DNA from: Actinomyces sp. S6-Spd3 | GTDB lineage: Bacteria > Actinomycetota > Actinomycetes > Actinomycetales > Actinomycetaceae | Length of the DNA: 64,000 nt | Assembly (NCBI RefSeq): GCF_000758755.1 | Contig: NZ_JRMV01000275.1 | Span: 62,001-126,000 of the forward strand | Reading direction: 5' to 3' | Shown: positions 2,203 to 51,864 of the stretch, piece by piece | How positions within the stretch are numbered: the stretch's first letter is position 1 | Layout: every line of letters begins with the position of its first letter | Made by a program: the position numbers and the translations under genes | The notes under the pieces: model-generated | What the model saw: only the letters and a program-made list of their open reading frames with translations | Database searches by the model: none | What the model was told of the DNA's origin: nothing

Positions 2203-3906
2203 CTAGGGGCGAATTCCCATGAGACGCAGGACTTCTCCAGCTAAGAGAACCGAACCAAAAACAACAACGCCGGTTGCGGGTGCACTCTCGTCCCCGGCCT
2301 CGCCAAGGTTAACGGCAGCGGCAATTGCTTCGAGAATATCCTCGTGGACTTCCACGCGGTCTTCCCCGAAAACATCGCGCGCAATTTCGGCAATTTCTTC
2401 GGCCGGCTTTGCGCGCACTCCGGGCATCTGTGTAACCACAAGGGAGTCCAGGTAGGGCTCAACCTCGCCGAGCACTCCTTCGATATCCTTATCCCCCATC
2501 CCCGAATAGACGCCAACAATGCGTTCAAAGTCGAAGGCCTCGGAAATGGATTCACCCAGGGTGTGTGCACCGGCAGGATTGTGCGCGGCGTCCACAATAA
2601 TCGTCGGCGAGTGGCGCACAACTTGAAGGCGCCCCGGTGAAGTAGCGGCAAGCATCCCGGCCTCGACAAGGCGAGCATCCAGCGCACGCCCGCCCATGAA
2701 GGCCTCGACGGCTGCGATCGCAGCTGCAGCATTATTCGCCTGGTAGCTACCAAATAGGGGAACGAAAACGTCCTCATAGACTGCTGCAGGGGTACGGACG
2801 GTAATCATTTGCCCACCGACCCCAAGCTGACGATCAAGGACTTCAAAGTCTCGACCTTCAAGGCGAACAATTGCATCGACGCTGGCCGCACGCTCTTCGA
2901 TCACCCGCAAGGCTTCTTCCTCTTGGCGGGCAACGATCACGATCTGACCGGGCTTGATGATTCCTGCCTTTTCTTCTGCGATCTCGCGAATGGTCGATCC
3001 AAGCCACTTTTCATGGTCGATCGCGATCGGCATGATGACGCTGACTCCAGCATCGATAACGTTCGTCGCGTCCCATCTGCCTCCCATTCCAACTTCGACG
3101 ACGGCAGCGTCAACGGGGTGGTCAGCAAAGGCTGCAAAAGCCATAACCGTGAAGACTTCAAAAAATGACAGTCGGGTTCCATCTGTTTCGGCGTGGGCAC
3201 GGTCGACCATTTCAATATAGGGAGCAATATCGTCCCACGTGCGCACGAATTCTTCTGCAGAGATCGATTCTTGTTCGATGGTGATTCTCTCGCGGACATC
3301 AACGAGGTGCGGAGAGGTGAATCGTCCGGTTCGCACGCCGCTTGCCGCTAAAAGCGCGTCAATCATGCGCGTTGTTGAGGTCTTTCCATTGGTGCCGGTG
3401 ATGTGCACGCTGGGATAGCTATTTTGGGGATCACCCAAGATATCGAGCGTTTCTTTCACACGATCCAAGGTCGGTTGAACCTGATGTTCGGGGACCCTCG
3501 CGATGATTTCTTGGTAGATTTCCTCAACGCGCGCTTCCATCCGAGCACTATGGGCAGCATCCGTCAAAGCTTCGCGGTGTGCGTCTTCTGCGCGCCGCTC
3601 AGCAAGTTCTTCTTCCCAATCTTCTCCCCACTGGGAGTAGTCGCCTTCAAGCTCAGCGAGGATTGACGGGTCTGGGCCTAGGAGCATCGAGTTCAGCGCC
3701 AGCGCCTCGAGGGCAAGATCGCGTTCGTCGGGCTCACTATCTGCTGACTCATTATCGAAGTCCTCTTCGTCGACGCGGTCAGCTTCTTCGAGGTAGGGAA
3801 TGAGGTCAGCTGGAATTGTCCCCGGACGCTGCTCTTCTTGCGAAGCGGGAGCGGCTTGCTCTGCCTCGTCATGCGAATGATGCGCGAAGAATGATTCCCC
3901 GGTCAT
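2203..3906 (-). CDS. folC: Bifunctional folylpolyglutamate synthase/dihydrofolate synthase with acidic N-terminal extension
   Basis: 567 residues against a usual ~430-450. The Mur-ligase-type ATP loop VHITGTNGKTSTTRM lies near residue 170, followed by VEVGMGGRWDATNVI and IAIDHEKWLGSTIREIAEEKAGIIKPGQ, diagnostic of FolC. It adds glutamate to dihydropteroate and tetrahydrofolate in the cytosol. The first ~140 residues are Asp/Glu-rich low-complexity sequence (EEADRVDEEDFDNESADSEP) with a helical EEELAERRAEDAHREAL stretch, not part of the enzyme fold. A start inside the ORF nearer the catalytic core is possible, but no strong internal ribosome site stood out. It lies immediately upstream of dhaK on the same strand. 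Confidence 0.93.
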   Translation of the reverse strand: MTGESFFAHHSHDEAEQAAPASQEEQRPGTIPADLIPYLEEADRVDEEDFDNESADSEPDERDLALEALALNSMLLGPDPSILAELEGDYSQWGEDWEEELAERRAEDAHREALTDAAHSARMEARVEEIYQEIIARVPEHQVQPTLDRVKETLDILGDPQNSYPSVHITGTNGKTSTTRMIDALLAASGVRTGRFTSPHLVDVRERITIEQESISAEEFVRTWDDIAPYIEMVDRAHAETDGTRLSFFEVFTVMAFAAFADHPVDAAVVEVGMGGRWDATNVIDAGVSVIMPIAIDHEKWLGSTIREIAEEKAGIIKPGQIVIVARQEEEALRVIEERAASVDAIVRLEGRDFEVLDRQLGVGGQMITVRTPAAVYEDVFVPLFGSYQANNAAAAIAAVEAFMGGRALDARLVEAGMLAATSPGRLQVVRHSPTIIVDAAHNPAGAHTLGESISEAFDFERIVGVYSGMGDKDIEGVLGEVEPYLDSLVVTQMPGVRAKPAEEIAEIARDVFGEDRVEVHEDILEAIAAAVNLGEAGDESAPATGVVVFGSVLLAGEVLRLMGIRP

Positions 3907-4001
3907 GAGTCCTCCCTAAGTTGAGCTGGGCCTATTCTATCGACGAGGCCATGGGGGCGCCGCGTTTGTGGGTATCGTTGCGTGGATGGGAAGGAAGAGA
4001 T

Positions 4002-4031
4002 TTCACCCAGATGCGTGCTGGAACGTAGACT
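4002..4031 (+). promoter_or_regulatory. Possible promoter of the seven-gene paralog array
   Basis: In the 150-bp divergent gap between folC and the first array gene, TTCACC (4002-4007) and TAGACT (4026-4031) are 18 bp apart, about 30 bp before the first possible ATG. It matches a sigma-70-type promoter only moderately and is a weak call made by eye. Confidence 0.25.
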
Positions 4032-4074
4032 GAGACCACTTAATCGTTAAACGAGGGAGATGTGCGAGGAGCTT

Positions 4075-5034
4075 ATGTCTGATTTTCCACCAAATTCCGG
4101 ATACCCAGCTCCCCAGGGCCCTCCTGTGATCCCTCAAGGCGGAGCCTACCCGCAGCCACAAGCTCCTTATCAGGCTCCTCAAGCTCCGTATGTCGAACCT
4201 GAGAAGAACCCCAGTTCAAAGGGGCCGATCATCGCATGGATTGCGGTACTGACCGTTCTTGCATTGGTTGTTGTCTTTTTCTTGTGGCACACGTCCGGCC
4301 GCGGTACCTCACCGTCGCCAAGTCCAAGTGCCCCTGATCCCTCGTCTTTCTCATCTGCCACCCCCAATCCGAACCCTTCACAGTCCGTCGATGATGGGAT
4401 CGATGAAGAAACCATTTCGGGGAGCCGCGGTGCGTGCTGGAGCGAGGCTACCAAGTCTGGGAAGGTGGACGCCGTCAAGGAGATTAAAACAAAGTCAGTG
4501 CACTTTGAAGGAAAGTTCGGCAACGGCGACATGAAGTACACGTACACGGGCACCTTGACCGGCTACGCAAAGGGTTCATCTTCAACGAGCAGCTTCGAGA
4601 TCGTCTGCAGCGTTGTTCACACTCAATCAAGTAACACGTTCATTGTTGTAGGAGATGTGGGTCTTACGCCGCTTGCCGATCCTTCACAATCTTCTTCGCC
4701 GGCTCCGACACCGACTAGGAAGTTCCACGATGATGACATCGATGAGAAAACATGGATGATCATCTTTGAAAAGTGCTCAAACGCTTCCACGCAATCTATT
4801 CGTGACGATTACAAAGTCATGGCAGTGTCAATCGATTACCTCAAGAAAACCGCGACGTTGAGTAATGGCAACGAGGAGTACGAGCTGACTGGAAAAGTTC
4901 ATGCAGAACGTAAGTACAAGGAATCTACCGATTTCTCTTCAAGCCTCTTCCAAATGAAGTGCACCGCTACTCATATGAAGGCAGATGATTCATATGACGT
5001 GAAGGCAGAGATTGACCCGAATCCGATCCAATGA
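4075..5034 (+). CDS. Array protein A: Pro/Gln-rich, one TM segment, two Cys-pair extracytoplasmic domains
   Basis: Unrecognised family. From ATG 4075 (GAGG five bases upstream; an in-frame ATG at 4060 is the alternative) it has ~319 residues. A Pro/Gln/Tyr-rich cytosolic tail (GYPAPQG, YPQPQ) is followed by one membrane helix (IAWIAVLTVLALVVVFFLW) and a Ser/Pro linker. Two related ~95-residue domains follow, each starting with a [DG]-I-D-E-x-T motif, with one Cys in a predicted helix and a second Cys in a strand ending C-x-V/A-x-H. No signal peptide precedes the helix, so the C-terminus should face outside. The stop overlaps the next gene by ATGA if that gene starts at 5031. Function unknown. 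Confidence 0.85.
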   Translation: MSDFPPNSGYPAPQGPPVIPQGGAYPQPQAPYQAPQAPYVEPEKNPSSKGPIIAWIAVLTVLALVVVFFLWHTSGRGTSPSPSPSAPDPSSFSSATPNPNPSQSVDDGIDEETISGSRGACWSEATKSGKVDAVKEIKTKSVHFEGKFGNGDMKYTYTGTLTGYAKGSSSTSSFEIVCSVVHTQSSNTFIVVGDVGLTPLADPSQSSSPAPTPTRKFHDDDIDEKTWMIIFEKCSNASTQSIRDDYKVMAVSIDYLKKTATLSNGNEEYELTGKVHAERKYKESTDFSSSLFQMKCTATHMKADDSYDVKAEIDPNPIQ

Positions 5035-5045
5035 ACGAGGAACTC

Positions 5046-5696
5046 ATGTCTGATTTCTCCCCCACCCCGGGCTACCCGGCTCCCCAAGGTAGCCCGCAGT
5101 TCCCCCAAGGAAGCGTGTATCCACCGCCTCAGGGACAATATCCCTCTCCGCAAACGCCGAACCCACTGCCGGCAACTCCAAAGCGCAGCATCAAGCTCAT
5201 TGTCTGGATTTCAGTTGTCATCGCTCTTCTTGCGGTCGCAGCTTTCTTCGCCTGGCGAGCTTTAACTCCGGGAGCATCTCCGACTCCGACCCCGGTATCA
5301 CCATCATCGAACGCCACTGCTTCTTCTGACACCGGAGAAAAAGTTGATGACTTCATCGGACATGATGTGGTTGCTAACTGTAGGATCGGCGTGTTAAACA
5401 CCCCTCGCTTCCCCAAGTTTGAGGGAATTAGGGCGCTGACGATCAAAGAAATCGGACGCTACGGTGATGTCGGCACTCAATACATGATGACCGGCCTAGT
5501 TTCGGGATCAAACGGATCCGATGCCATAGAAACCTATCGAATGACGTGTACCGCCGTTGTGGCAGACGATCCAGCAGCGGCCGGGGTTGGCTTTGTCTTC
5601 GATACCACCAGCGTCGAGATTGAGCCCACGCCTGTGTCAACCCCCGCTGTCTCAGATAGTTCAACTCCGACGCCTGTTGTTAAGAAGACCCCATGA
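5046..5696 (+). CDS. Array protein B: Pro/Gln-rich, one TM, single Cys-pair domain
   Basis: Same family as the preceding gene, ~216 residues. N-terminal MSDFSPTPGYPAPQG tail, membrane helix (LIVWISVVIALLAVAAFFAWRAL), Thr/Pro/Ser linker, then one ~95-residue domain (VDDFIGHDVVANC ... YRMTCTAVV) and a Ser/Pro/Thr C-terminal tail. ATG 5046 is preferred because GAGG lies five bases upstream; ATG 5031, overlapping the previous stop, is in frame. The stretch ATGAACGAGGAACTCATGTC nearly repeats the start region of the first array gene, showing that the leader was duplicated too. Function unknown; it is expected to be membrane-anchored with an external domain. Confidence 0.83.
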   Translation: MSDFSPTPGYPAPQGSPQFPQGSVYPPPQGQYPSPQTPNPLPATPKRSIKLIVWISVVIALLAVAAFFAWRALTPGASPTPTPVSPSSNATASSDTGEKVDDFIGHDVVANCRIGVLNTPRFPKFEGIRALTIKEIGRYGDVGTQYMMTGLVSGSNGSDAIETYRMTCTAVVADDPAAAGVGFVFDTTSVEIEPTPVSTPAVSDSSTPTPVVKKTP

Positions 5697-6313
5697 GTGA
5701 TTTCACGCCTTACCCCGAATACCCTCAACCCCAGGGAGCACCACAGTTTCCACAAGACGGCGCTTACCCGCCGTTCCAGGGACAATACCAGCCCCAGCAA
5801 TCCCCGTATCCTGCTCCTCCAAAGCCGCCAGTTAATAAAGGTCCGGTCATGATCTGGGTTGCGATTGTTGCGGTCCTGGCGTTGGTCGCTGTCTTTTTCT
5901 TGTGGCGCAGTTTCACGCCTCAGGTACCGCCGACTCCTACGCCGACGTCCGCGGCACCCGTTCCAAGCGAATCAACGACAAGCGCGTCGCACTCAGCTTC
6001 TCCAACGAAGAAAAAGACTTCTGCTAAGCCGACACCTACCCGTTTCCCCGACATCGACTACAACACGGCAATTCTCGTTGAGAAGAGCTGCACCGATGCC
6101 ATTAAACAGTATGTTGACCAGAAGTACGACCGAACCGAAGTCGATGACATGTATCGGTCTGAGACTCCAAATGGAGACATGAGTTTCGATGTTTCGGTCT
6201 TCGGATATAAAGGCGATACTCAGTACCTTCTTGAGTGCAAGGTCGCTCACCCCAGGTGGAGTGAAATCTGGGCGACGGAAGAGATCACTGTGCACGAAAA
6301 TCCCGTCAAATAG
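5693..6313 (+). CDS. Array protein C: Pro/Gln-rich, one TM, single Cys-pair domain
   Basis: ~206 residues, starting at an ATGA overlap with the previous stop, so translation is probably coupled. The tail has YPEYPQPQGAPQFPQ and QYQPQQSPYPAP; the helix is VMIWVAIVAVLALVAVFFLW. A linker rich in Thr, Ser, Pro and Lys leads to one domain (DIDYNTAILVEKSCTDAIKQ ... YLLECKVAHPRW). The two Cys of the external domain are conserved with the other array members, suggesting a disulfide. Function unknown. A perfect inverted repeat follows the stop. Confidence 0.83.
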   Translation: MSDFTPYPEYPQPQGAPQFPQDGAYPPFQGQYQPQQSPYPAPPKPPVNKGPVMIWVAIVAVLALVAVFFLWRSFTPQVPPTPTPTSAAPVPSESTTSASHSASPTKKKTSAKPTPTRFPDIDYNTAILVEKSCTDAIKQYVDQKYDRTEVDDMYRSETPNGDMSFDVSVFGYKGDTQYLLECKVAHPRWSEIWATEEITVHENPVK

Positions 6314-6314
6314 G

Positions 6315-6366
6315 AGCTTATCTAGTTACTCCCCTAGGATCTGCAAGGGGAGTAACTAGATAAGCT
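6315..6366. repeat. Perfect 21-bp inverted repeat between array genes C and D
   Basis: Arms 6315-6335 and 6346-6366 are exactly complementary, with a 10-base loop. The repeat begins just after the array C stop. No T-run follows on either strand. It may be a U-tract-less terminator ending the first A-B-C cassette, or the scar or target of a rearrangement. Confidence 0.8.
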
Positions 6367-6403
6367 ATGTCCGCCATCTGTAGTAGTAAAAGAGAATTAT
6401 TCG

Positions 6404-7105
6404 ATGTCTAACTTCACTCCGGCACCAGGATCCCCAAGCCCCCAACCCTACGGCGGCGGGTACACTCCCCAAGGTTCTTATCCCCAAGCTCCATATCCTC
6501 AAGGCCAGTATCAGGCACCACAGGGAGGTTTCCAGCCTCAACAAGGACCATATCCGCCTGCGCCTCGCTCATCATTCAACAAAGGCCCTCTATACGTGTG
6601 GATCGCAGTAGTTGCGGTTCTTGTACTCCTTCTTGCCTTCTTCCTGTGGAGGTCTTCGAGCACGAGCGTTTCGCCCGCGCCCACTCCGTCTATTTCTTCC
6701 CCCACACCCGTTCCCACTTCTTCCACGCCGACACCCAAGCCGACTTCTCCTTCACCCAAACCCAAGACTTCAACGACTGCGTCAAAATCTCCCACGGCAA
6801 AATCTTCCTCACCAAGCCCATCTAAAACTCGCCACGAGGGAATCGATGACAAAACTGCGATGCTCATTGAAAAATCTTGTTCGATCACTGCCAAACTGAA
6901 CAGCACTCGCCCCATTAACGTCGTCTTTGTCGACGAAATTCAGATCGGCGAAACGCGTTCGAATGGTGACCAGCAATATAACGTCAAGGGCCATGCCTTC
7001 GAAGGACAAACTAAGTATGAGGCTCGCTGCACGGTCGTCCATGTAAAAGATGATGACCTGTGGAAGACAGAGGATTCATCGATTGGGACAGATCCGATTG
7101 AGTGA
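6404..7105 (+). CDS. Array protein D: Pro/Gln-rich, one TM, long Ser/Thr/Pro linker, single domain
   Basis: ~233 residues. The tail MSNFTPAPGSPSPQPYGGG is followed by several YPQ/YQAP repeats, helix LYVWIAVVAVLVLLLAFFLW, then an unusually long ~60-residue Ser/Thr/Pro/Lys linker that looks like a glycosylation-prone stalk. One domain follows (HEGIDDKTAMLIEKSCSITAKLN ... YEARCTVVHVKDDDLW), closest by eye to array protein C. It stands alone between the two A-B-C cassettes, separated on the left by the perfect hairpin and on the right by a 91-bp gap. Function unknown. Confidence 0.83.
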   Translation: MSNFTPAPGSPSPQPYGGGYTPQGSYPQAPYPQGQYQAPQGGFQPQQGPYPPAPRSSFNKGPLYVWIAVVAVLVLLLAFFLWRSSSTSVSPAPTPSISSPTPVPTSSTPTPKPTSPSPKPKTSTTASKSPTAKSSSPSPSKTRHEGIDDKTAMLIEKSCSITAKLNSTRPINVVFVDEIQIGETRSNGDQQYNVKGHAFEGQTKYEARCTVVHVKDDDLWKTEDSSIGTDPIE

Positions 7106-7196
7106 GGGGCATTTTTCGTTCCACGGCGAGAAGTGATCTTGCTAGGAAGGACATCGGCGCTGTCAATTTGCATCCTGCTCACAGAAAGGAGAGCGC

Positions 7197-8162
7197 ATGT
7201 CTGATTTCACCCCAAATTCGGGAGATTCCGCTCCCCAAGGAACTCCATTTGTTCCTCAGGATGGAGAATATCGGACATCCGAGGACGAGCAGCAGCTGCC
7301 AATGCCTCCTCACGATGAGCTTCCAAGAGAAAACATCGCTAAGGGACCAATCGTTACGTGGATCGCAGCTCTCACCATTTTGGCGTTGATTGTTGTCTTC
7401 TTCATGTGGCGCAATAGTTCCACTCAGAAGGTTCAACCAGCACCGACTCCAAGCACGTCATCATCGGTTCCATTACCGTCAGCGTCTCTCCCCGACTGGA
7501 TTCCACCCCATCCTATTGACGATGGCATCGATGAAGACACTATTGAGAAGGTCCAAAGTAAATGCGCCAATGCGTCACAGACATCCGGAAAGATGGACCT
7601 CCTCCTCCAGATCAAAACCAAGACGCTCAGAATTACCGATAAAAATACCGCCGGGAAGGTGAAGTACACCTACACCGCCACGGTGACGGGCTATGCCAAG
7701 GGATCCTCAGTCCAAAGCAGGTACGAAATCACCTGCCCTGTCACTTATGTCGAGGCCAGCGATACTTTCAACGTTGACGGGGCAGTCGATCTCACCCTGC
7801 TTCCCGCCGCGTCTCAATCATTCTTCCCCACCCCGACACCAACGACGAAGAACCGAGATGACGGTATCGATGAAAAGACATGGCTGATGATTACTTTCAA
7901 GTGTTCGAGTGCAGCCGCTCAGTCTCTCCGCGATGATTACCAATCCAAGGCTGTCTCTACGGATTATCTCAAGAAAACCGGAACACGCGACAACGGCGAT
8001 GAAGAATACGAGGTTGACGGAACGGTACATGCAGAACGAAAGTACAAGGAAGATACCGATTTTTCGTCGGCCCTTTTCCACATGAAGTGCACAGCTACTC
8101 ACGTGAAGGCAAGTGACTCATATGAGATCAAAGCCTTTGTCGACCCGAATCCGCAGCAATGA
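7197..8162 (+). CDS. Array protein A', second copy of the two-domain type
   Basis: 321 residues from ATG 7197, with AAGGAG close upstream. Same architecture as the first array gene: Pro-rich tail (MSDFTPNSGDSAPQG), helix (IVTWIAALTILALIVVFFMW), Ser/Pro linker and two Cys-pair domains. The second domains of the two copies match at about 70 of 101 positions by eye (DYLKKT, VHAERKYKE and MKCTATH are shared). The cytosolic tails have diverged much more than the external domains. The 91-bp gap before it may hold its own promoter, so the second cassette could be expressed independently. Function unknown. Confidence 0.85.
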   Translation: MSDFTPNSGDSAPQGTPFVPQDGEYRTSEDEQQLPMPPHDELPRENIAKGPIVTWIAALTILALIVVFFMWRNSSTQKVQPAPTPSTSSSVPLPSASLPDWIPPHPIDDGIDEDTIEKVQSKCANASQTSGKMDLLLQIKTKTLRITDKNTAGKVKYTYTATVTGYAKGSSVQSRYEITCPVTYVEASDTFNVDGAVDLTLLPAASQSFFPTPTPTTKNRDDGIDEKTWLMITFKCSSAAAQSLRDDYQSKAVSTDYLKKTGTRDNGDEEYEVDGTVHAERKYKEDTDFSSALFHMKCTATHVKASDSYEIKAFVDPNPQQ

Positions 8163-8173
8163 ACGAGGGACGC

Positions 8174-8833
8174 ATGCCTGATTCCACCGTGCAATCCGGA
8201 TACCCGGCTGGGCAAGAAGCTTCACCGCTCCCGCAGGGTAGCAGACCGATACTACTGCATGGGCAGTATACGGAGCAGCAGACGCCTCACTCTACGCAGC
8301 TAAAACCGCGAAACCCCCAAGGTAAAGCAATTGTGTGGATTGCAGTTGCGATAGTGCTTGCACTGATTATTGGCTTCTTCCTGTGGCATTCCTCCACGCG
8401 GGGAGCCTCACCGGTTCCAACACCGGGACCAAGCTCATTGAGCGCAACTTCCTCACCGTCTTCCTCCCCTGAACAACCAGTAGGAGAATCGATTGGGAGA
8501 CAAGTTGTTAGCCGGTGCAGCATGGAGATCAAGAATACTCCCGGCTTCTCACTGGTAGGCATCCGAGCACTGAACATTACGAAGCTCGGACCATATGGCT
8601 CAGCCGGCACTCAATACATGATGACCGGAATAGTCTCAGGATCCATTGGAACAGAAGCTGTGCAAACCTATGACGTGACTTGCACAGCCGTGTTGAGTAA
8701 AGAAGTCCAAAGCATCAGTTTTTCGTTTGACACGACCAACGTGAAAATTGACCCCACTCCTTTGCCGACTCCAACAATCTCGGATAGTTCTTCACCGACA
8801 CCTACTCCTGTTGTCAGGATCACCCATGCCTAG
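8174..8833 (+). CDS. Array protein B', second copy of the B type
   Basis: ~219 residues from ATG 8174, with GAGGGA just upstream; ATG 8159, overlapping the previous stop, is in frame. Tail, helix (AIVWIAVAIVLALIIGFFLW), linker and one domain (VGESIGRQVVSRCSMEIKNTPGFSLVGIRALNI ...) match array protein B closely, including shared GTQYMMTG and YDVTCTAVL segments and the Ser/Pro/Thr C-terminal tail. The cytosolic tail is basic here and has lost most of the Pro-Gln repeats. Function unknown. Confidence 0.82.
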   Translation: MPDSTVQSGYPAGQEASPLPQGSRPILLHGQYTEQQTPHSTQLKPRNPQGKAIVWIAVAIVLALIIGFFLWHSSTRGASPVPTPGPSSLSATSSPSSSPEQPVGESIGRQVVSRCSMEIKNTPGFSLVGIRALNITKLGPYGSAGTQYMMTGIVSGSIGTEAVQTYDVTCTAVLSKEVQSISFSFDTTNVKIDPTPLPTPTISDSSSPTPTPVVRITHA

Positions 8834-9401
8834 TCTCATGCCTTCCGCCGACTCCCCCGTTCCTCAGGCATCTCCACATCTTCCACATGTCGAAACTTAC
8901 GCTCCGCTCAAAAGATACGGCCAAGCACAACAATCTCCGCATCCAGAACCGGCAAAGTCCCCGACAAAGAAGCCTGTCATAATCTGGGTTGCACTCGTCA
9001 TCATCGCGATAACCGCTGTCTTTTTCTTGTGGCGTAGCTTTCCATTTGCCCCATCACCTTCTGTGCAAGAAACATCAAGACCAACGCCCTCAAATTCTGT
9101 GGCACCGTCAGTTTCCGCGACTCAGCCTCATTACGAAAGCACTGATGCAGACGAAGAAGCGATTGTCGAGCAACAGTGCAGTCGTGCACTTAAAGAGAAC
9201 CTCCAACGAAATATTAGCCTTACCTCTAAACGTTCCATCAGAAAGACCGCAGACGATAAGGGAATGGCTTACTACAGCGTGTACATGAATGTTTTCGAAG
9301 GAAACCAAAAGTACTACGCGCAGTGCAAAATAACTCACCCTCGCTGGAGCGATGTCTGGATAACAGAAGAGATCATCTTCGACGAAAAACCTCAGCCCTA
9401 G
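8826..9401 (+). CDS. Array protein C', second copy of the C type
   Basis: About 191 residues from ATG 8826, which overlaps the preceding stop by 8 bp; an open frame extends further upstream but only inside the preceding gene. Tail, helix (VIIWVALVIIAITAVFFLW), short linker and one domain (ESTDADEEAIVEQQC ... YYAQCKITHPRWSDVWITEEI) parallel array protein C, with HPRWS-[ED]-[IV]-W shared exactly. It completes the second A-B-C cassette. Function unknown. Confidence 0.8.
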   Translation: MPSLMPSADSPVPQASPHLPHVETYAPLKRYGQAQQSPHPEPAKSPTKKPVIIWVALVIIAITAVFFLWRSFPFAPSPSVQETSRPTPSNSVAPSVSATQPHYESTDADEEAIVEQQCSRALKENLQRNISLTSKRSIRKTADDKGMAYYSVYMNVFEGNQKYYAQCKITHPRWSDVWITEEIIFDEKPQP

Positions 9402-9458
9402 GATATTCATCCAAAGACCCGACGAGCTCTGAGCATCCCTAGTAGGCGTGTTATCCGC

Positions 9459-9496
9459 GCAGGAGTCCCCATGACATTTGTCATGGGGACTCCTGC
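9459..9496. terminator. Hairpin ending the paralog array
   Basis: An 18-bp perfect stem (arms 9459-9476 and 9479-9496) lies 58 bp after the last array gene and 48 bp before the ABC transporter ATPase. There is no U-tract, as is common for actinobacterial terminators. It probably isolates the array from the ABC/two-component operon. Confidence 0.6.
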
Positions 9497-9543
9497 ATCA
9501 AAGGACACTTCTGGCCTCATTCATGGGCGCACACACTTGAACC

Positions 9544-10266
9544 ATGAATACAGAAGCAGCCCCTGCTCTGCAGGCGACCAACATCCACCAGTCTTTCGGC
9601 CCCGTCGAGGCACTGCGAGGAGTCAACCTCACCCTGATGCCCGGCGAAATCGTTGCGATCCTCGGCGTTAACGGCGCAGGCAAGAGCACTTTCCTCGACA
9701 TCGTCCTTGGCTTGGCCACACCAACTTCGGGTGAGATCAGCGTCTACGGAATAAGTCCACGTGAGGCCGTGCGCCGTTCCCTCGTCGGAGCAATGCTCCA
9801 AACTGGCTCAATGCCTCGAGACGGCAGGGTCGGCTACACCATCGATCTGGTGGCCTCAATGCACGCCAACCCGATCCCTACCGACGAGCTCCTCGAACGC
9901 ACAAAACTCACTCAGTTGGCCAAACGTCCGATCGACAAGCTCTCTGGAGGCGAGCGCCAGCGTGTACGCCTCGCCCTGGCACTGGCGGGCAACCCCGACT
10001 TCCTGATCCTCGACGAGCCAACCGCGGGAATGGACGCGCTCGCCCGCCGCGCATTCTGGGAGACGATGCGTGCCGAGGCCGCAGAAGGTCGCACCCTCCT
10101 CTTCGCCACGCACTACCTCACCGAGGCCCGCAAGGATGCAGACCGCATCGTCATCATCGATGAGGGACGTGTGCTCCTCGACGCACCGACCGAGCAAGTC
10201 GTCGCCGACAACGAAGACCTTGAAGACGTTTTCGAGCGCATTACCTCCCACGCGGACGCAGAGTAA
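9544..10266 (+). CDS. ABC exporter ATP-binding protein (CcmA/YvfR type)
   Basis: 240 residues. Walker A GVNGAGKST, signature LSGGERQR, Walker B FLILDEPTAGMD and switch His in FATHYL are all present. As a cytosolic ATPase it should energise the ABC-2 permease encoded next (gap ~42 bp). The four-gene order ATPase-permease-histidine kinase-response regulator is the same as in Bacillus yvfRSTU-like drug/peptide export loci. Substrate unknown. Confidence 0.92.
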   Translation: MNTEAAPALQATNIHQSFGPVEALRGVNLTLMPGEIVAILGVNGAGKSTFLDIVLGLATPTSGEISVYGISPREAVRRSLVGAMLQTGSMPRDGRVGYTIDLVASMHANPIPTDELLERTKLTQLAKRPIDKLSGGERQRVRLALALAGNPDFLILDEPTAGMDALARRAFWETMRAEAAEGRTLLFATHYLTEARKDADRIVIIDEGRVLLDAPTEQVVADNEDLEDVFERITSHADAE

Positions 10267-10308
10267 GCCTCGCCCACGAACGCAGATACACCATACGAAG
10301 AAGGCATC

Positions 10309-11097
10309 ATGACCACCCACGCACCCGCACGAGCAACCAGTCGCCCCATCCCCTCCCCCTTCAAGGGCGCGGGGAAACTCTGGATCTCGACCTTCCTCTC
10401 TCACATCCTCAATCCGTGGAACATGGCCTTCGCACTGGCCATCCCACTGTTCATGTACGCGATGTTCGGCATGACCGAGGCCGCGCGCACTACACAGACC
10501 GGACGCGGGAACCTCGCCGCTGCCATGGTCGTCATGATGACCACCTACGGCGTCATCCTGGTGGGCGGGTCTCTTGGCGCGACGCTCTCCGTTGAACGCA
10601 CGACCGGCATCTCACGCATGTATGCCCTGACCCCCATCCAGCCGTGGGTGATCCTCGTGGTACGCCTGACCGCTCTGGTGGCACTGAGCGCTTTCATCGC
10701 ACTCATCTGCTTCAGCGTGGGGCTTGCGACCGGTTCGAAGATGGAGACGAGTGCCTGGATCATCAGCGGGCTCGTCGTCGTTGCTCTCTCGGCCTTGGGT
10801 GCGCTCATTGGTTTGGCTTGCGGATACACGATCAAGGGCGAGAACGCCTACAGTGCCTCCGCTTTCGTCATGCTCATGGGTGCCTTCGTGTCAGGCATGT
10901 TCATCCCACTCGACCAGCTGCCGCCCTTCGTCTCTCAGATTGCACCCTTCACTCCCCTGTACGGCGCCGTGCAAGCGGTCTATGCGGTGGCCGGAACCGT
11001 ACCAATGACCACATCCGCCTGGCTCAACATCGCCGGGTGGGCGGTTATTACGGCTGGAATTGCCTGGTGGGGCGCATCCCACGACACGGCTCGCTAG
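10309..11097 (+). CDS. ABC-2 type exporter permease
   Basis: 262 residues with about six hydrophobic segments (for example MAFALAIPLFMYAMFGM, VMMTTYGVILVGGSLGATL, LVVVALSALGALIGLACGY), typical of ABC-2/DrrB-like permeases. The VERTTGISRMYALTPIQPW segment after the second helix matches the conserved cytosolic region of this family. It pairs with the ATPase directly upstream, and 9 bp separate it from the histidine kinase, so the four genes are likely co-transcribed. Confidence 0.88.
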   Translation: MTTHAPARATSRPIPSPFKGAGKLWISTFLSHILNPWNMAFALAIPLFMYAMFGMTEAARTTQTGRGNLAAAMVVMMTTYGVILVGGSLGATLSVERTTGISRMYALTPIQPWVILVVRLTALVALSAFIALICFSVGLATGSKMETSAWIISGLVVVALSALGALIGLACGYTIKGENAYSASAFVMLMGAFVSGMFIPLDQLPPFVSQIAPFTPLYGAVQAVYAVAGTVPMTTSAWLNIAGWAVITAGIAWWGASHDTAR

Positions 11098-11106
11098 GCT
11101 ATTGCC

Positions 11107-12243
11107 ATGAAGGAACGTTTAATTTCCCTGGCGTGGGCGGCCCCGTGGATGCTGTTCTTAGGCTTTCCCCTCGCCTACGCCATGGAATTGCCTTCCTCAA
11201 CGCAGCGCGCGAGCATCATCGGACTGTGCGTGCTCCTCGCGCTTGCTAACTCGGCGACGTGGCTGGCCAATCCCTTGCCCGCTCGCAACTCCTTCACGAG
11301 GCCGCTCATCCTCTCCCATGGGGCACTGGCGCTCACAACGCTGGGCTATCTCGTCTACGCGATCCGCGTCGGTGTCCCCTACGCCTTCATGTTGACTTCC
11401 TTCTTCCTGGTTGCGTGGGTGTTCCAAGCACCAAGCCGCTACGTGATTGCAGGGATCGTCCCAATCGTTGCGATCGCTGGAGTATTTGCTTACGCGGAGG
11501 GTGAACCCCTGTGGGCGGGGTGTTACCTAGCGTTGGTTGGCATCTTTGTGGGCATGGCTCGCTGGCGTATGGAGCGCTCGACTCGCGAACGTCTACGCCG
11601 CCAAGATGCAATCCAGCGCGCAAAGGCAGCTGAGCGAGCCCGCATGAGCACTGACCTGCACGATATCTTGGGTCACTCGTTGATGGGCATCACGATGATT
11701 TCTGAATTGGCCGGTCGTCTTTTGGACGAGGGACACAATGAGGAAGCGCGTGAACAAATCCGTTCAGTTACTGCTCAATCAAACGAGGCCTTGGCTGACG
11801 TTCGCCGCATCGTTGCGGCCACGCGCGCACTATCCCCCTCCGAGGAACTCCAAGAGGCACGATCTTTGCTCGAGGTCGCGCGCATTGATGCCGAGATCAC
11901 AAACGATGGGGAACCTGCGTCGAGACCGCGCTCGGCGGCTGCAGCCCATGTCATTCGCGAGGGAGTCACGAATGCTCTCCTTCACGCCCGCCCTTCCCTC
12001 GTCCGTATTCATTTATCTCAAGACAGCGTCAGCGTCTGGAATGACGGTTATTCTGCCGCCTACGCCGCTTCTACAGCAGGATCTGGATCAGGCCTCGTTG
12101 GGCTATCCGAGCTCGTCGGTGATGAGGGAACCTTGACCTGGGGCGCATCGGGACATACGTGGACGATTTCCCTCACTTTCCCCTCTATGCCTCTCGGCGA
12201 AGAGGAACCATCCTCCAATATGGTGAACCAGCGCAAGGAATAG
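11107..12243 (+). CDS. DesK/NarL-family sensor histidine kinase
   Basis: 378 residues. About five membrane helices fill residues 1-150 with no large extracellular loop, so sensing is probably within the membrane. A HisKA_3-type dimerisation domain follows with the phospho-His in DLHDILGHSLMGITM near residue 183, then an HATPase_c domain with N-box REGVTNALLHA and a Gly-rich GSGSGLVGLSELV segment. It is expected to phosphorylate the response regulator encoded next. Its link to the ABC exporter suggests response to a membrane-active compound, an inference from context. Confidence 0.9.
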   Translation: MKERLISLAWAAPWMLFLGFPLAYAMELPSSTQRASIIGLCVLLALANSATWLANPLPARNSFTRPLILSHGALALTTLGYLVYAIRVGVPYAFMLTSFFLVAWVFQAPSRYVIAGIVPIVAIAGVFAYAEGEPLWAGCYLALVGIFVGMARWRMERSTRERLRRQDAIQRAKAAERARMSTDLHDILGHSLMGITMISELAGRLLDEGHNEEAREQIRSVTAQSNEALADVRRIVAATRALSPSEELQEARSLLEVARIDAEITNDGEPASRPRSAAAAHVIREGVTNALLHARPSLVRIHLSQDSVSVWNDGYSAAYAASTAGSGSGLVGLSELVGDEGTLTWGASGHTWTISLTFPSMPLGEEEPSSNMVNQRKE

Positions 12244-12295
12244 CGCCCCCAACTGCGCTAACCTAGTAGCCCAGATGGCTACGCAGGAGGTGAGC

Positions 12296-12961
12296 GTGAC
12301 AATTCGTGTGCTCGTGGCCGACGATCAGGCAATGATTCGCGGAGCTTTGGCGGGGCTGCTCAACTTGGAGCGTGACATCGAGGTAGTCGCTCAGGCCGCC
12401 GATGGAGTGCAGGCTCTTGAGGAACTGACTCGTCTAGCAACGCAAGACGCTTCGCCCGATGCAAAACCGACGAGTTCTGCACGCCCAGCCTCTCCCGCCG
12501 ACGTCGCAATTGTCGACATCGAAATGCCTCACATGGACGGCATCACGACAACTGAAGCAATTCGCGCCCGTTTCCCCGGGGTACGCGTACTGATTGTCAC
12601 GACATTCGGCCGGCCGGGTTACCTGCAACGCGCCCTCGATGCGGGGGCAACGGGTTTCATGGTGAAGAACGCGCCGGTCGAGGCTTTGGCCGAGGGCGTA
12701 CGCACAGTCGCAGCAGGCGGTCGTGCGATTGACCAGAGTCTTGCAGTGGAGGCACTCTCAAGCGGTTCATCATCACTCACCCCGCGTGAGGCAGACGTTC
12801 TACGCGAAGTTGAGCGCGGCGGCACAATCGCCGACATTGCCCGTACGCTGGGACTCAGTCAAGGAACCGTGCGTAACCACGTCTCCTCAGCGATGCTCAA
12901 GATGGAGGCACGCACCCGCGCGGAGGCCGCATCCTTGGCGCGGGCAGCGGGTTGGCTGTAG
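12296..12961 (+). CDS. LuxR/NarL-family response regulator with an insertion in the receiver domain
   Basis: ~221 residues from GTG 12296, preceded by AGGAGG with ideal spacing; ATG 12275 would place that site inside the gene. The receiver has the acidic pair in LVADDQ and phospho-Asp in VDIEMPHMDG. The C-terminal LuxR helix-turn-helix reads LTPREADVLREVERGGTIADIARTLGL and SQGTVRNHVSSAMLKM. About 20 extra residues rich in Ala, Ser, Pro and Asp (DASPDAKPTSSARPASP) sit just before the phospho-Asp strand, a place where this family is normally compact. Partner of the upstream kinase. Confidence 0.9.
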   Translation: MTIRVLVADDQAMIRGALAGLLNLERDIEVVAQAADGVQALEELTRLATQDASPDAKPTSSARPASPADVAIVDIEMPHMDGITTTEAIRARFPGVRVLIVTTFGRPGYLQRALDAGATGFMVKNAPVEALAEGVRTVAAGGRAIDQSLAVEALSSGSSSLTPREADVLREVERGGTIADIARTLGLSQGTVRNHVSSAMLKMEARTRAEAASLARAAGWL

Positions 12962-41756: not shown

Positions 41757-43007
41757 TTACTTGCCAAGGACGGCAAGTTCGTCATCGATTATTCCCGTTC
41801 CAGATCCGACGTAGGTCGTCACTCCCATGAGCAGGCCCGTGACTGCCATCGCCAGCAAGGGAATAGTCTCGCTTCCAAGGAATTGGAGGAGGATCCCGAA
41901 ACCGATAGGGCCAAGCGCAGCAATCACGTAGCCAATGGGCTGCACCAAGGCTGAAAGTTCGGCCGTCACAGCTGCGTCGCGAGACCGGGCAGGAATGAGG
42001 GCGATGATGAGGGGAAAGGTGAATCCCCCGATTGCCAACAAGGACACCCAGAGAAATGCGAAAGACCCGGGCACCAGCACCAAACCGATCCAGCCGACGA
42101 ATGTCAGCAGACCGAAAATAATGGAAAGCCATGGGATATGCGTCCCCATGTGGTCAATCATGAAGGGAATGACCAGGCCACCAAGGACTGCCCACAAATT
42201 CACAAGAGCTGTCATGATGGACGCAAATCCAGCAGAGTAGCCGGCATTCATCAAAATTTGCGGGAGAAATGCAAATTGAACATAAGCGTTCAATGCTTGA
42301 AGTCCGAATCCGAGGACCAAGGCAATTGCAGTCCTCGAGTGATAGATCGGGCGCCGCTTGGTCGCATTAGAGGAGGAAGTTTCCGCGCTTCGGGTGCCTC
42401 CATCGGGAGAATCTCGACGAACAAGACCGCTGATCTTGATCCAAATTGCCCCTGCGATAACAGCAAAAATCGCCCAACTCGCCAGTGAAGACCGCCAGAG
42501 CTGGCCATCATGACCAGAAAGCGGCACGGCGAACGCAGAACCTGCCGCTCCTCCGATCAGCAAGACCGTTCCGTATGTGGTGACGAGCAGCGTTCGCCGT
42601 CCGGCCTCGTGGAATTTAATCCAGGCAGGGACAAGGACGTTCGCAAGGGCTGGGCCGATGAGTGCAACGACGCTCAGAAGACAAAAGAGCGTAAAGTTGC
42701 CCGCCCAGGGACGCACAAGCAAGCCGAGGCCACTGAGTGCAGTGCCCGTAGTCAGCACAGCGCTCATCCCCCAACGCTTTGAGAGGGGAACAGCGAGAAG
42801 TCCAACACCAGCAAAGACAAGGCAGGGAAGAGCAGAGAGGACTCCAAGGGCCCCCTCTCGAGCCGAATAGGCCTGAGAGATCGTAGACAGAAGCGGCCCG
42901 GTCGAGGTCGCCCCAGAGCGCATAGTTAAACTCATGGCGAGAATGCCGACGAATGCCAGGGAAGTTGAAACCGCGGCACGTGAATATGTTTTTTGCTGCG
43001 CTGTCAT
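41757..43007 (-). CDS. MFS transporter, CynX/NimT type
   Basis: 416 residues with twelve predicted helices. The N-terminal helix pattern FVGILAMSLTMRSGATSTGPLLSTISQAYSA, with an Arg in helix 1, is typical of the CynX/NimT branch (cyanate or 2-nitroimidazole transporters). The gene is alone and divergent from the OPT gene. Substrate unknown; the family assignment is made by pattern only. Confidence 0.82.
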   Translation of the reverse strand: MTAQQKTYSRAAVSTSLAFVGILAMSLTMRSGATSTGPLLSTISQAYSAREGALGVLSALPCLVFAGVGLLAVPLSKRWGMSAVLTTGTALSGLGLLVRPWAGNFTLFCLLSVVALIGPALANVLVPAWIKFHEAGRRTLLVTTYGTVLLIGGAAGSAFAVPLSGHDGQLWRSSLASWAIFAVIAGAIWIKISGLVRRDSPDGGTRSAETSSSNATKRRPIYHSRTAIALVLGFGLQALNAYVQFAFLPQILMNAGYSAGFASIMTALVNLWAVLGGLVIPFMIDHMGTHIPWLSIIFGLLTFVGWIGLVLVPGSFAFLWVSLLAIGGFTFPLIIALIPARSRDAAVTAELSALVQPIGYVIAALGPIGFGILLQFLGSETIPLLAMAVTGLLMGVTTYVGSGTGIIDDELAVLGK

Positions 43008-43179
43008 TATTTTTCTGTGTTCTTCACTTCATTTTCGACTCTGGTCAGCAGATTTTCCCAAATTGCGACCATACATTGAACGGGATTTTCATAAGGCGCT
43101 TAGACTGTCAATCACTACAAGGACCGACACATATGACCGCAGGGTGCGGCCGATGCGTCAGCACACGGAAAGGATTCAC

Positions 43180-45201
43180 GTGTCTACGCCCGCAACGAGC
43201 TCACGCTCGTCACTTAAGGAATTGACCTTCCGAGGAATTGTCATCGGTGGAATTATTACTTTGGTTTTCACCGCCGCGAACGTCTACCTGGGATTGAAAG
43301 TTGGATTGACTTTCGCGACCTCCATCCCGGCAGCCGTCATTTCCATGGCAATTCTACGATTTTTCTCGGATCACACTATCCAAGAAAACAACATTGTCCA
43401 AACAATTGCTTCCGCTGCCGGAACGCTTTCCGCAGTAATCTTCATCCTCCCCGGTCTGGTGATTGTCGGCTGGTGGAGCGGATTCCCCTACTGGACGACA
43501 ATGGCCGTCTGCGCGGTCGGCGGCATCTTGGGTGTTATGTACTCGATCCCCTTGCGCCGCGCGTTGGTTACGGGTTCGGACCTTCCCTACCCCGAAGGTG
43601 TTGCCGGAGCAGAAATCCTCAAGGTTGGCGACTCCCACGAGAAGTCAGCCGACAACAGCCTTGGTTTGCGCGCAATTATTTGGGGGGCAATCTGCTCTGC
43701 CGCAATGTCCTTGCTGTCCTACATGAAGGTTGCGGCCTCGTCGCTGTCAGCAACCTTCCGTGTAGGTGCAGGTGCAACCTCGATTGGTACCTCGCTCTCG
43801 CTGGCGCTGATCGGCGTCGGTCACCTGGTGGGATTGACTGTCGGCATTGCCATGCTCATCGGCATGTTCGTCAGTTTCTTCATCTTGATTCCTTACTTCA
43901 GTGTCGGGCAGCTTGACGGTTCACCACTGTCTGACATTGTCGACACGGTCTTTTCTAGCCAGGTGCGTTACATCGGCGCCGGCGTCATGGCCGTCGCGGC
44001 AATCTGGACTCTTGTCAAGATCATCTCCCCCATCATCAAGGGAATCCGTGATGCCATGCGTTCTTCTCGCACCCGTCACGCGGGCGGCGAACTCGACCAG
44101 ACTGAACGCGATATTCCGATTACGATCGTCGCGCTGGTGATTGTTCTGTCGATGATTCCCGTGGGCGGTTTGCTGTGGATCTTCACCCACGGCACCGAGA
44201 TTGCTCACAATACAGCGATGCTCATCGCTGTTTCTGTGATCTTCACTCTGCTCGCAGGACTCTTGGTCGCCGCAGTTTGCGGTTACATGGCCGGCCTCAT
44301 CGGCTCGTCAAATAGTCCCGTTTCAGGCGTGGGTATTTTGGTCGTAGTCTTGACCGCTCTGGCAATCGTTGCCGTTCACGGACACGGTTCTTCCGGCGCG
44401 GAAACCACTGCCCTCATCGCCTACACCCTCTTTACCGCCGCGATTGTCTTCTGTATCGCAACGATTTCGAACGATAATTTGCAAGACCTCAAGACTGGTC
44501 AGCTCGTGGGTGCAACTCCCTGGAAGCAGCAGGTCGCGCTGGTCATCGGTGTTGTTTTCGGTGCTCTCATCATTCCTCCGGTCTTGAACCTCATGCAGAA
44601 CGCTTTCGGTTTCCAGGGAGCTCCTGGAGCAGGTCAAGATGCACTTGCAGCCCCGCAGGCCTCTCTGATTTCTTCGCTGGCTCAAGGAGTTGTGGGCGGC
44701 ACTCAAGACTGGAGTCTCTTGGGTCTGGGTGCAATCATCGGCGTGGGTATCATCATCGTCGATGAGCTTCTCAAGCTGAGCTCGAAGGGCCGCTTTGCTC
44801 TTCCGCCTCTCGCGGTCGGCATGGGCATGTACCTCCCCGCTTCTTTGACGATTATGATCCCCGTTGGCGGCGTCATCGGTTTCTTCTACGACCGTTGGTC
44901 CGCAAAGCGCAAGGATCCCGAGCGCGCACGTCGAATGGGTACGCTCTTGGCGACCGGTCTGATCGTCGGCGAAAGCCTCTTTGGCGTGATCTACGCAGGC
45001 ATTGTTGGCGCCACAGGAAGCGAAGAACCGCTTGCCGTTCTGGGCGATTCCTTCGCAACGCCAGCGACCATCATCGGTGCGCTCTTCTTCTTCGGTTCAA
45101 TCTTCGCGCTGTACCGTTGGACAAGCGGCATGGTTTCGCGCACAGATAGCGCTCCTACCATTGATGAGGCAGAGGCTGAGGAAGCACTCGACGTGCACTG
45201 A
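43180..45201 (+). CDS. OPT-family oligopeptide transporter
   Basis: ~673 residues from GTG 43180, preceded by AAGGA with five-base spacing; the open frame reaches 42934, which would overlap the divergent MFS gene and add a non-conserved region. Core: ELTFRGIVIGGIITLVFTAANVYLGLKVGLTFATSIPAAV, EENIVQTIASA-like IQENNIVQTIASAAG, and YPEGVAGAEILK. About 14-16 helices. Members import di/oligopeptides by proton symport. Fits the pepO/pepN pair nearby. Confidence 0.92.
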   Translation: MSTPATSSRSSLKELTFRGIVIGGIITLVFTAANVYLGLKVGLTFATSIPAAVISMAILRFFSDHTIQENNIVQTIASAAGTLSAVIFILPGLVIVGWWSGFPYWTTMAVCAVGGILGVMYSIPLRRALVTGSDLPYPEGVAGAEILKVGDSHEKSADNSLGLRAIIWGAICSAAMSLLSYMKVAASSLSATFRVGAGATSIGTSLSLALIGVGHLVGLTVGIAMLIGMFVSFFILIPYFSVGQLDGSPLSDIVDTVFSSQVRYIGAGVMAVAAIWTLVKIISPIIKGIRDAMRSSRTRHAGGELDQTERDIPITIVALVIVLSMIPVGGLLWIFTHGTEIAHNTAMLIAVSVIFTLLAGLLVAAVCGYMAGLIGSSNSPVSGVGILVVVLTALAIVAVHGHGSSGAETTALIAYTLFTAAIVFCIATISNDNLQDLKTGQLVGATPWKQQVALVIGVVFGALIIPPVLNLMQNAFGFQGAPGAGQDALAAPQASLISSLAQGVVGGTQDWSLLGLGAIIGVGIIIVDELLKLSSKGRFALPPLAVGMGMYLPASLTIMIPVGGVIGFFYDRWSAKRKDPERARRMGTLLATGLIVGESLFGVIYAGIVGATGSEEPLAVLGDSFATPATIIGALFFFGSIFALYRWTSGMVSRTDSAPTIDEAEAEEALDVH

Positions 45202-45223
45202 GCGTCGCTCACCTACAGTTTGA

Positions 45224-45250
45224 GGGGAGTCGGATTCAATCCGACTCCCC
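45224..45250 (+). terminator. Terminator of the OPT transporter gene
   Basis: GGGGAGTCGGAT and ATCCGACTCCCC form a 12-bp stem with a three-base loop, 22 bp after the stop, followed by CCTGCTTTATT. Confidence 0.7.
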
Positions 45251-45326
45251 CCTGCTTTATTCAGCGACTACTCCCAGTGACGACTTCTTATCGCCACGCA
45301 TGCGCGTTTAAACTCTTTTCCCATAC

Positions 45327-45357
45327 AAAAATCCGCTGGATGCTCAAACATCCAGCG
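45327..45357 (-). terminator. Minus-strand intrinsic terminator with no gene ending at it
   Basis: Read on the minus strand, a 9-bp stem CGCTGGATG/CATCCAGCG (45349-45357 with 45334-45342) is followed by GATTTTTG (T-run at 45331-45327). The nearest minus-strand gene, the LacI-type regulator, ends 560 bp upstream, beyond an opposing gene. Confidence 0.6.
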
Positions 45358-45388
45358 AGTAACCTCACGGGACTCACTTGATCTGCGC

Positions 45389-45844
45389 ATGCTTCGTCAT
45401 GGCGGTATCAGCATTCATATTTCCCGCACTCCTCTCCCCTGCGAAGATCACACGGGAACGTTATTTGAAGCCGAGTTGTCTCATACGTCCGGGCAGGCAT
45501 CGATCTCCCCGTGCCCCGGCTGTTCAGGCGGTCGCAAAGTAGGAAATCTGGGAAGTAACGGCGCAATCACTTTTCCGAATATCTTGATAGACCGGGCAGG
45601 AATTTACACACTGTCAGTCGGATACCTCTCTGAAGATCCTCGCTCTTTCCTGCTACGCGTCAACGACCGCAATATTGTGGTGACACCTCCACGTTCCGGA
45701 AAAGGAAATGACGGGCAGCCCAGCGGATGGGAAATCGTCCGAACCGTTGATATCCCAGTCGAACTCCACTCCGGTACAAATACTGTGACCATCTCAGGGA
45801 ACACCCCATGGGCTCCTGATATTGATCGAGTGATTGTTCGCTAG
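45389..45844 (+). CDS. Orphan carbohydrate-binding domain, probable remnant of a glycoside hydrolase
   Basis: 151 residues. From residue ~25 to the end it looks like a complete CBM6/35-type beta-sandwich: LFEAELSHTSGQASISPCPG, CSGGRKVGNLG, ITFPNILIDRAGIYTLSVGY, DPRSFLLRVND and the terminal PDIDRVIV. Such modules usually sit at the C-terminus of secreted glycosidases such as GH27 alpha-galactosidases. Here there is no catalytic domain, no signal peptide and no clear ribosome site. Likely the 3' end of a gene whose front was deleted, though a free lectin-like protein is possible. A glycan-type LacI regulator stands next to it. Confidence 0.65.
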   Translation: MLRHGGISIHISRTPLPCEDHTGTLFEAELSHTSGQASISPCPGCSGGRKVGNLGSNGAITFPNILIDRAGIYTLSVGYLSEDPRSFLLRVNDRNIVVTPPRSGKGNDGQPSGWEIVRTVDIPVELHSGTNTVTISGNTPWAPDIDRVIVR

Positions 45845-45850
45845 CGACGT

Positions 45851-45892
45851 CTGTGGGTGGAGGAGAAAGCTATAGATCCCCTCCACCCACAG
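45851..45892. terminator. Terminator between orphan CBM and LacI-type regulator
   Basis: CTGTGGGTGGAGG (45851-45863) and CCTCCACCCACAG (45880-45892) form a 13-bp stem, followed on the plus strand by TCCGTTTT. Shared by convergent genes. Confidence 0.7.
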
Positions 45893-45915
45893 TCCGTTTT
45901 CACGAGAAAAGATCC

Positions 45916-46926
45916 CTATTTGACCTCAGGAGGGCTCCCCAGAGTTCCTCCTTCGATGAACTCTCCGGGCACCAGGATCGAGGCGTTGCGCGCCTCGGAA
46001 CCGGCTAGGCGTTCCTGCGCGAGCAGCACGGTCTGCCTCGCCAATTCGCGCACCGGTTGTGCAACCGTCGTCAGGTTCAAAAGCGGTGAAGAATACGGAC
46101 CGGTCGCGTCAAAGCCCGTCACCGACACCTGCTCCGGGCAGGCAATCCCTCGCGACGCCAAGTGTTCCAAAATTTTCACCGCAATCAGATCACTTCCCGC
46201 AATGACCGCAGTACACCCGGCATCAATCGCCCGGTCAATGCCGTCGAAAAGATCCTCACCGTAGTCGCTGTGAGACGTCACGATATGTGGCTGGACGCCG
46301 TCGACAACCAGCTGGGTAATGAAGGTTGCGGTACGGGCATGCAGGGTGGCCGCGAGGGGGTGGCTGGTGGCGGTGACAGCAACTTTCCGGTGTCCATAGG
46401 CCACAACTTTTTGCGCCAGCATCGCTTCATACGCGGGATCGATGCGCACAGAATCAAATTCAGGGCGGGTTTCCCCACAGCCGATAGTAATGAGCGGGAC
46501 GAAGGAAGCCGCATACTGCATGGCCTCGTTCGATACTCGGCCAGAAGCAACGATAACCACGCCCACCCCGTGTCCCACGAGGTTGTTAATGGCCTGCATC
46601 TGGCCTTCTTCGCTGTCACCTCCGGCGGTAATCAACAGTTCTAACCCGAGTTCGTCGGTGTGCGCTTGGAGTTCTTCTGCAACTTTCCCATAGAAGCTGT
46701 GTCCAATGTTGCGCACCAAAAGGCCGACAGTGGTGGTGCTGGAACTGGCGATCCCAGCAGCACCGAGGTTTCGCACATATCCGAGGCGGGCGGCAGCTTG
46801 GCGCACAGCGACGCGCGCTTGGGAACTGACGGCGGGATGCCCAGAAAGTGCGCGGCTGGCAGTCGCCTGCGACACTCCCGCTGCTTGAGCCACATCAATG
46901 ATGCTGGCTCGTTTCTTTCTGGGCAT
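45916..46926 (-). CDS. LacI-family transcriptional regulator
   Basis: ~336 residues from ATG 46926 (MPRKKRASIIDVAQAAGVSQ); the frame extends to 47070 but overlaps the next gene. Helix-turn-helix DVAQAAGVSQATASRALSG and hinge VRQAAARLGYVRNLGA, then a sugar-binding domain (GVGVVIVASGRVSNEAMQYA, CTAVIAGSDLIAVKILEHL, VTGFDATGPYS). Its targets are not evident. It may once have controlled the glycosidase suggested by the adjacent CBM remnant, or the upstream transporter. Confidence 0.9.
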   Translation of the reverse strand: MPRKKRASIIDVAQAAGVSQATASRALSGHPAVSSQARVAVRQAAARLGYVRNLGAAGIASSSTTTVGLLVRNIGHSFYGKVAEELQAHTDELGLELLITAGGDSEEGQMQAINNLVGHGVGVVIVASGRVSNEAMQYAASFVPLITIGCGETRPEFDSVRIDPAYEAMLAQKVVAYGHRKVAVTATSHPLAATLHARTATFITQLVVDGVQPHIVTSHSDYGEDLFDGIDRAIDAGCTAVIAGSDLIAVKILEHLASRGIACPEQVSVTGFDATGPYSSPLLNLTTVAQPVRELARQTVLLAQERLAGSEARNASILVPGEFIEGGTLGSPPEVK

Positions 46927-46970
46927 CCTCGAACATCCGTCTTTCAGTGAGTGGTGGGTATTCCCCGACG

Positions 46971-47597: not shown

Positions 47598-47608
47598 GGT
47601 TCCGACCT

Positions 47609-50427: not shown

Positions 50428-50462
50428 AGCTTGTCTCCAATGAAAACGGCAGGAGAGACGCA

Positions 50463-50506
50463 CACGGGGTGCGCGAGTTCCTCAGTGGGTTCTCGCGCAC
50501 CCCGTG
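50463..50506 (-). terminator. Hairpin between binding-protein and permease genes
   Basis: A perfect 15-bp G+C-rich stem (50463-50477 with 50492-50506) starts just after the binding-protein stop. Such attenuators often make binding protein more abundant than permease. Confidence 0.7.
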
Positions 50507-50509
50507 GTC

Positions 50510-51562: not shown

Positions 51563-51809
51563 TGAGCCTTCCGTTGCAATATGTTGTCTATGCACAGTTC
51601 GGAGTTGTGGATACGTTTCCACACCGGAGAGAGTACAGCATTTGCGACAATCTCGTCAATAAATAGGGACTTGTCCCCCAAAGCTTCACCAAATCGTAAT
51701 CTGCATACGTTTTCATTCGGGAAGCAGATTTTCTGATGCCCTTTTCCGAAGAACTCTGGATTCATCCAGGACGCGTATATTCACGCACGTATTCACACGC
51801 GCATCGCGA

Positions 51810-51857
51810 CAATAAAAGAAAAGCGCCACAATCACTGAGATCCTCAGGATTGTGGCG
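51810..51857 (-). terminator. Intrinsic terminator after tRNA-Ala
   Basis: On the minus strand, a 10-bp stem (51857-51848 with 51833-51824) with inner pairing is followed by CTTTTCTTTTATTG (51823-51810), the best U-tract terminator in the window. Confidence 0.85.
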
Positions 51858-51864
51858 GAGACTG

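Follow-up and report, generated by a model that had tools for sequence, protein, structure and literature searches.

Within a 64,000-nucleotide stretch of contig NZ_JRMV01000275.1 from Actinomyces sp. S6-Spd3 (positions 62,001 to 126,000; hereafter the window, in whose coordinates features are given), seven consecutive open reading frames (ORFs) lie between 4060 and 9401, all on the + strand and all paralogous, as a preliminary description had stated. The pairwise identities of the products (g1/g5, 54%; g2/g6, 48%; g3/g4, 38%; g3/g7, 35%) resolve this array into an A-B-C block, one additional C-type gene and a second A-B-C block. In the first block, g1 (type A, 4075..5034) encodes an anchor with two external domains, and g2 (type B, 5046..5696) and g3 (type C, 5693..6313) each encode an anchor with one. 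The additional C-type gene, g4 (6404..7105), encodes one domain on the longest stalk of the array (57 amino acids), and the second block consists of g5 (type A, 7197..8162, two external domains), g6 (type B, 8174..8833) and g7 (type C, 8826..9401). The ORFs of g1, g2, g6 and g7 open at 4060, 5031 (4 bases inside g1), 8159 and 8748 (a TTG), respectively, but their likely starts are 4075, 5046, 8174 and 8826 (an ATG), since each of these opens a shared MSDF/MPDS-type start, with a purine-rich stretch upstream of g1, g2 and g6. With these starts, the first block has an 11-base gap from the g1 stop to g2 and then a 4-base overlap of g2 and g3, and the second an 11-base gap from the g5 stop to g6 and then an 8-base overlap of g6 and g7. 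As fourfold sites are near saturation, the duplications within the array are judged to be old.

Protein architecture was compared among 35 family members (7 from the window and 28 from relatives). All have a Cys-free tail, a single hydrophobic helix and no further hydrophobic stretch; the tails of the seven window proteins (about 46-58 residues) are mostly Pro/Gln-rich, so that the earlier outline of a Pro/Gln-rich tail and one membrane helix applies to all seven. Lys and Arg were more numerous on the N-terminal side of the helix in 28 of the 35 proteins, balanced in 5 and scarcer in 2, which supports the N-inside orientation proposed earlier for the anchor. In the window proteins the stalk between helix and domain measures 22-57 residues, and none of the seven has the C-terminal LPXTG motif, helix and charged tail of wall-anchored adhesins. 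The tails showed no cytosolic anti-sigma domain of the RsgI type, as no Pfam model of any kind scored above cut-off; a single weak NCBIfam anti-sigma match, to g6, had E 0.0033 and 17.5 bits where the cut-off is 100. The helix block had a median pairwise identity of 44% (shuffled medians 18-28), the tails one of 39% (24-33) and the domains one of 25% (18-23; 20% in the multiple alignment). The external domain is thus the most divergent of the three parts, the reverse of the earlier claim that tails vary while domains keep their core. With free end gaps, however, the 39% of the tails falls at the top of the shuffled range (29-39), and much of their likeness is therefore compositional. Recent gene conversion of the tails was considered and rejected, fourfold-site divergence there being about equal to that in the domains. 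In the family gene of one relative (L078, 10651-11604), part of the repetitive tail is masked (N).

The array encodes nine external domains on the + strand: g1a (4390..4680), g1b (4729..5031), g2 (5337..5639), g3 (6044..6310), g4 (6833..7102), g5a (7518..7808), g5b (7857..8159), g6 (8474..8767) and g7 (9135..9398). They are 88-101 residues long, in keeping with the one or two domains of about 95 residues described before, and each contains exactly two Cys, 49-62 positions apart. The conserved Cys of the preliminary description were thereby confirmed, while its [DG]-I-D-E-x-T start was found exactly in only four of the nine domains (g1a, g1b, g5a and g5b), approximately in g3 and g4, and not in g2, g6 or g7. 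In an alignment of 32 of the 37 domains in hand (five near-duplicates were omitted), both Cys were present in every sequence at core-facing positions, and they therefore probably form a pair. The domain Cys are the sole Cys in 33 of the 35 proteins, those of G016 and G019 having one more in the helix.

Structures were predicted for the g4 and g5a domains (predicted local distance difference test, pLDDT, 94.0 and 91.6, respectively). In both models a single helix comes first; it is 17-18 residues long, contains the first Cys and packs on a 4-5-stranded antiparallel sheet. In the cystatin family (Pfam cystatin, MEROPS I25), a helix likewise lies on a 4-5-stranded antiparallel sheet, with QxVxG and PW loops, and from the models the external domains probably adopt this small alpha+beta fold. 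Cystatins C, D and E/M are among the solved structures nearest in fold, as are latexin and a plant aspartic-protease inhibitor, a list that could suggest cell-bound protease inhibitors acting like cystatins. This is improbable, as neither QxVxG (first hairpin loop) nor PW (second hairpin loop) occurs in any of the 32 domains and no cystatin family is among their Pfam matches at E <= 1; a PRW at the position of the PW loop in g3 and g7 probably arose by chance. NTF2-like folds, whose topology has additional helices forming a cone, and VirB8-like folds were also matched, and the domains could belong to a machine for secretion, transfer or sensing. Little weight is given to this possibility: the scores were no better than those of cystatins, the models show one helix ahead of the sheet, and no secretion part or anti-sigma look-alike was found among those neighbouring proteins that were scanned, a subset of the neighbours. 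Immunoglobulin domains are all-beta sandwiches with an inter-sheet disulfide, and a weak Ig mu profile match (E 0.022) was ruled out by the helix-first models with a Cys in the helix.

The earlier statement that the domain belongs to no assignable family was upheld in every reference library searched. The seven window proteins scored below the cut-off of every Pfam and NCBIfam model, the best Pfam and NCBIfam matches among the 32 domains (E 0.0028 and 0.0015, respectively, one member each) were unconvincing and taken as chance, and PHROGs gave no match at E <= 0.01 for any of the 32. Also attributed to chance were low-complexity matches such as that to GltJ (3.7e-05; 23 bits, cut-off 450) and a PADLOC match (E 0.0095) in one of the 32 domains. 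A phage or plasmid origin was likewise rejected, as tblastn with the g5 protein (E <= 0.001) matched none of 72,556 plasmid or 50,697 phage records and PHROGs returned nothing. The domain appears, from these searches, to define a family without annotation, which was not found in the literature searched.

Within the window genome, the domain profile recovered these nine domains and nothing else at E <= 0.01. Of the 35 genomes searched in the genus, 16 contained the family, with nine domains in the window genome and in G010, four in G026, three each in G005, G006, G022 and G023, two each in G013, G018 and G020, and one each in G001, G007, G008, G016, G019 and G021. The other 178 of the 213 genomes searched with the profile yielded one partial match (G079, E 0.003, positions 36-81), and among 394 genomes of the class full matches were confined to the window's own, with 35-position scraps in G289 and G498; the three weak matches outside the genus were taken as chance. 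A full-length search with g1 (E <= 0.001) found matches in 35 of 200 genomes of the taxonomic family, 21 of them in other genera. These other-genus matches lay mainly in the tail, helix and stalk, may represent proteins with a similar anchor, and were left out of the family count. Within the genomes searched, the family is thus found only among close relatives.

The window aligns end to end with the genome of A. marseillensis P2818T (G010), a species listed from the respiratory microbiota and recovered once from a blood culture (PMC6106433). The 64 kb contain 3,201 differing positions, but a tract at 3875..9752, comprising the whole array with about 0.2 kb before and about 0.35 kb after it, contains a single difference in 5.9 kb. 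The distance from one difference to the second-next here is 5,879 bases, against a maximum of 353 in 2,000 random placements, a control that assumes a uniform spread of differences, which real genomes violate. The left flank (1-4 kb) is itself below average divergence (12-32 per kb), and outside the tract and its edge the next longest difference-free stretch is 878 bases. Near-identity of a cassette in two genomes otherwise 5% different points to recent exchange, which is the simplest reading of the sequences. The main alternative, an assembly chimera of two strains in one sample, is suggested by the fragmented state of the window genome (281 contigs, 3.65% estimated contamination); it is considered rather unlikely, as the contig around the tract is at least 126 kb long and the alignment is continuous throughout the window. 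Elsewhere, divergence from A. marseillensis is also lower at 42000-52000 (10-25 per kb in nine of the ten kb, 53 in the tenth) than at 10-42 kb (34-130 per kb), possibly reflecting another exchange.

Family genes occupy two chromosomal sites. In the window genome, G010, G016 and G019 they adjoin folC, beyond which lies a sulfatase gene. In G016 and G019 this site contains only one family gene, without the ABC transporter and two-component genes that come after the window array. The latter (9544-12961, directly after the array) comprise an ABC transporter pair, a histidine kinase and a LuxR-type regulator. On the other side (2203-3906, - strand), the folC product has about 100 extra acidic N-terminal residues ahead of its FolC match. 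Sequences from the folC site stand apart in the domain tree (support 95/94). A FolC tree could be built for 30 of the 35 genomes (four matched but returned no locus, including the carrier G007, and one had no match); the 15 carriers in it form two clades, requiring 2 changes, whereas 500 shuffles averaged 10.3 and none of them was as low.

The second site, in all 12 loci fetched from other carriers, lies between an ATP-grasp-like gene, which a FemAB-type gene adjoins, and a GH13 gene. This constant neighbourhood favours a ligand from the cell's own wall machinery, and the domains might bind the cell's own peptidoglycan or wall enzymes, such as cross-link makers, rather than foreign ligands. 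The FemAB-type protein of G026 matches PF02388 (E 9.2e-12; the GNAT model PF13480 is slightly better, 7.5e-13), and short stalks would suit a position within the wall. Such a housekeeping role is nevertheless thought unlikely: the window genome has its thrS-FemAB-ATP-grasp locus without family genes there, none of the three neighbours was found at the folC site of G016 and G019, and the ATP-grasp-like product is weakly assigned (its NCBIfam score is under the cut-off, and Pfam gave no match at 1e-5).

Two perfect inverted repeats of different sequence were found in the array region, one between g3 and g4 (6315..6366, 21-nucleotide arms, 10-nucleotide gap) and one after g7 (9459..9496, 18-nucleotide arms, 2-nucleotide gap). 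The former could mark the transcription end of the first block. Neither was picked by a scan for T-run terminators, and promoter and terminator scans gave counts no higher than in shuffled sequence.

Beyond these computed features (the architecture, invariant Cys pair, predicted fold, two A-B-C blocks and near-identical tract), a tentative explanation, held with less than even confidence as a whole, is that the genes encode lineage-specific, single-helix, N-inside membrane proteins whose cystatin-like domains bind ligand, with the A, B and C types forming a mixed complex and the repertoire being exchanged among relatives. In each protein a Ser/Thr/Pro stalk would carry one or two small alpha+beta domains within the cell envelope, and the two Cys of each domain would join helix to sheet in a buried disulfide, locking the small exported unit. 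The domains would have no catalytic role; variable loops and the exposed sheet would instead contact a ligand, most likely a protein or peptide, much as in cystatins and affimers. The closely spaced A, B and C paralogs may act together through their similar helices, the disordered tails providing a cytosolic contact, and duplication, divergence and exchange would alter the ligand repertoire. An envelope binding module is the best-fitting function because the domain is small, stalked and probably disulfide-locked, the sequences diverge on a common fold and the paralogs occur in ordered sets. Of the surface receptor, adhesin or binding roles envisaged earlier, binding is compatible with the predicted fold, but a surface location is uncertain, as stalks this short could place the domains beneath the Gram-positive wall or within it.

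The exchange tract favours a foreign ligand. In a highly unlikely extension of the binding explanation, the arrays would be exchangeable sets of affimer-like recognition modules with which these human-associated bacteria meet attackers or partners. Such counterparts might be epibiotic Saccharibacteria, phages or bacteriocins, for which the modules would serve as docking sites or decoys; a contest with them would then underlie the diversification, the use of two chromosomal sites and the recent exchange of the entire cassette. Host recognition by Saccharibacteria is largely unknown according to PMC12206443, and a published host-range comparison ranked enriched Pfam functions (PMC7784981), an approach to which families lacking a Pfam model would stay invisible. 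No genome in the present analysis was linked to a tested host strain.

In engineering, the predicted fold serves as a binding scaffold (affimers), and bacteria apparently use it in tandem membrane-anchored sets. Cystatins and the phytocystatin-derived affimers or adhirons share 5-16% identity with the domains among the matches listed; unlike them, the family lacks QxVxG and PW, has its Cys pair in helix and strand, and is membrane-anchored and bacterial. The NTF2-like superfamily, with examples such as TcpC and the NTF2 domain of RsgI9 that are extracytoplasmic domains of membrane proteins, has a related superfold, from which the family models differ in having one helix only, with NTF2 scores not above those of cystatins. 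The sortase-anchored adhesins of Actinomyces also combine extracytoplasmic domains with Ser/Thr/Pro-rich stretches, as the family does, whereas the present proteins lack a C-terminal LPXTG and have an N-terminal helix as their anchor, the tail being predicted to lie inside.
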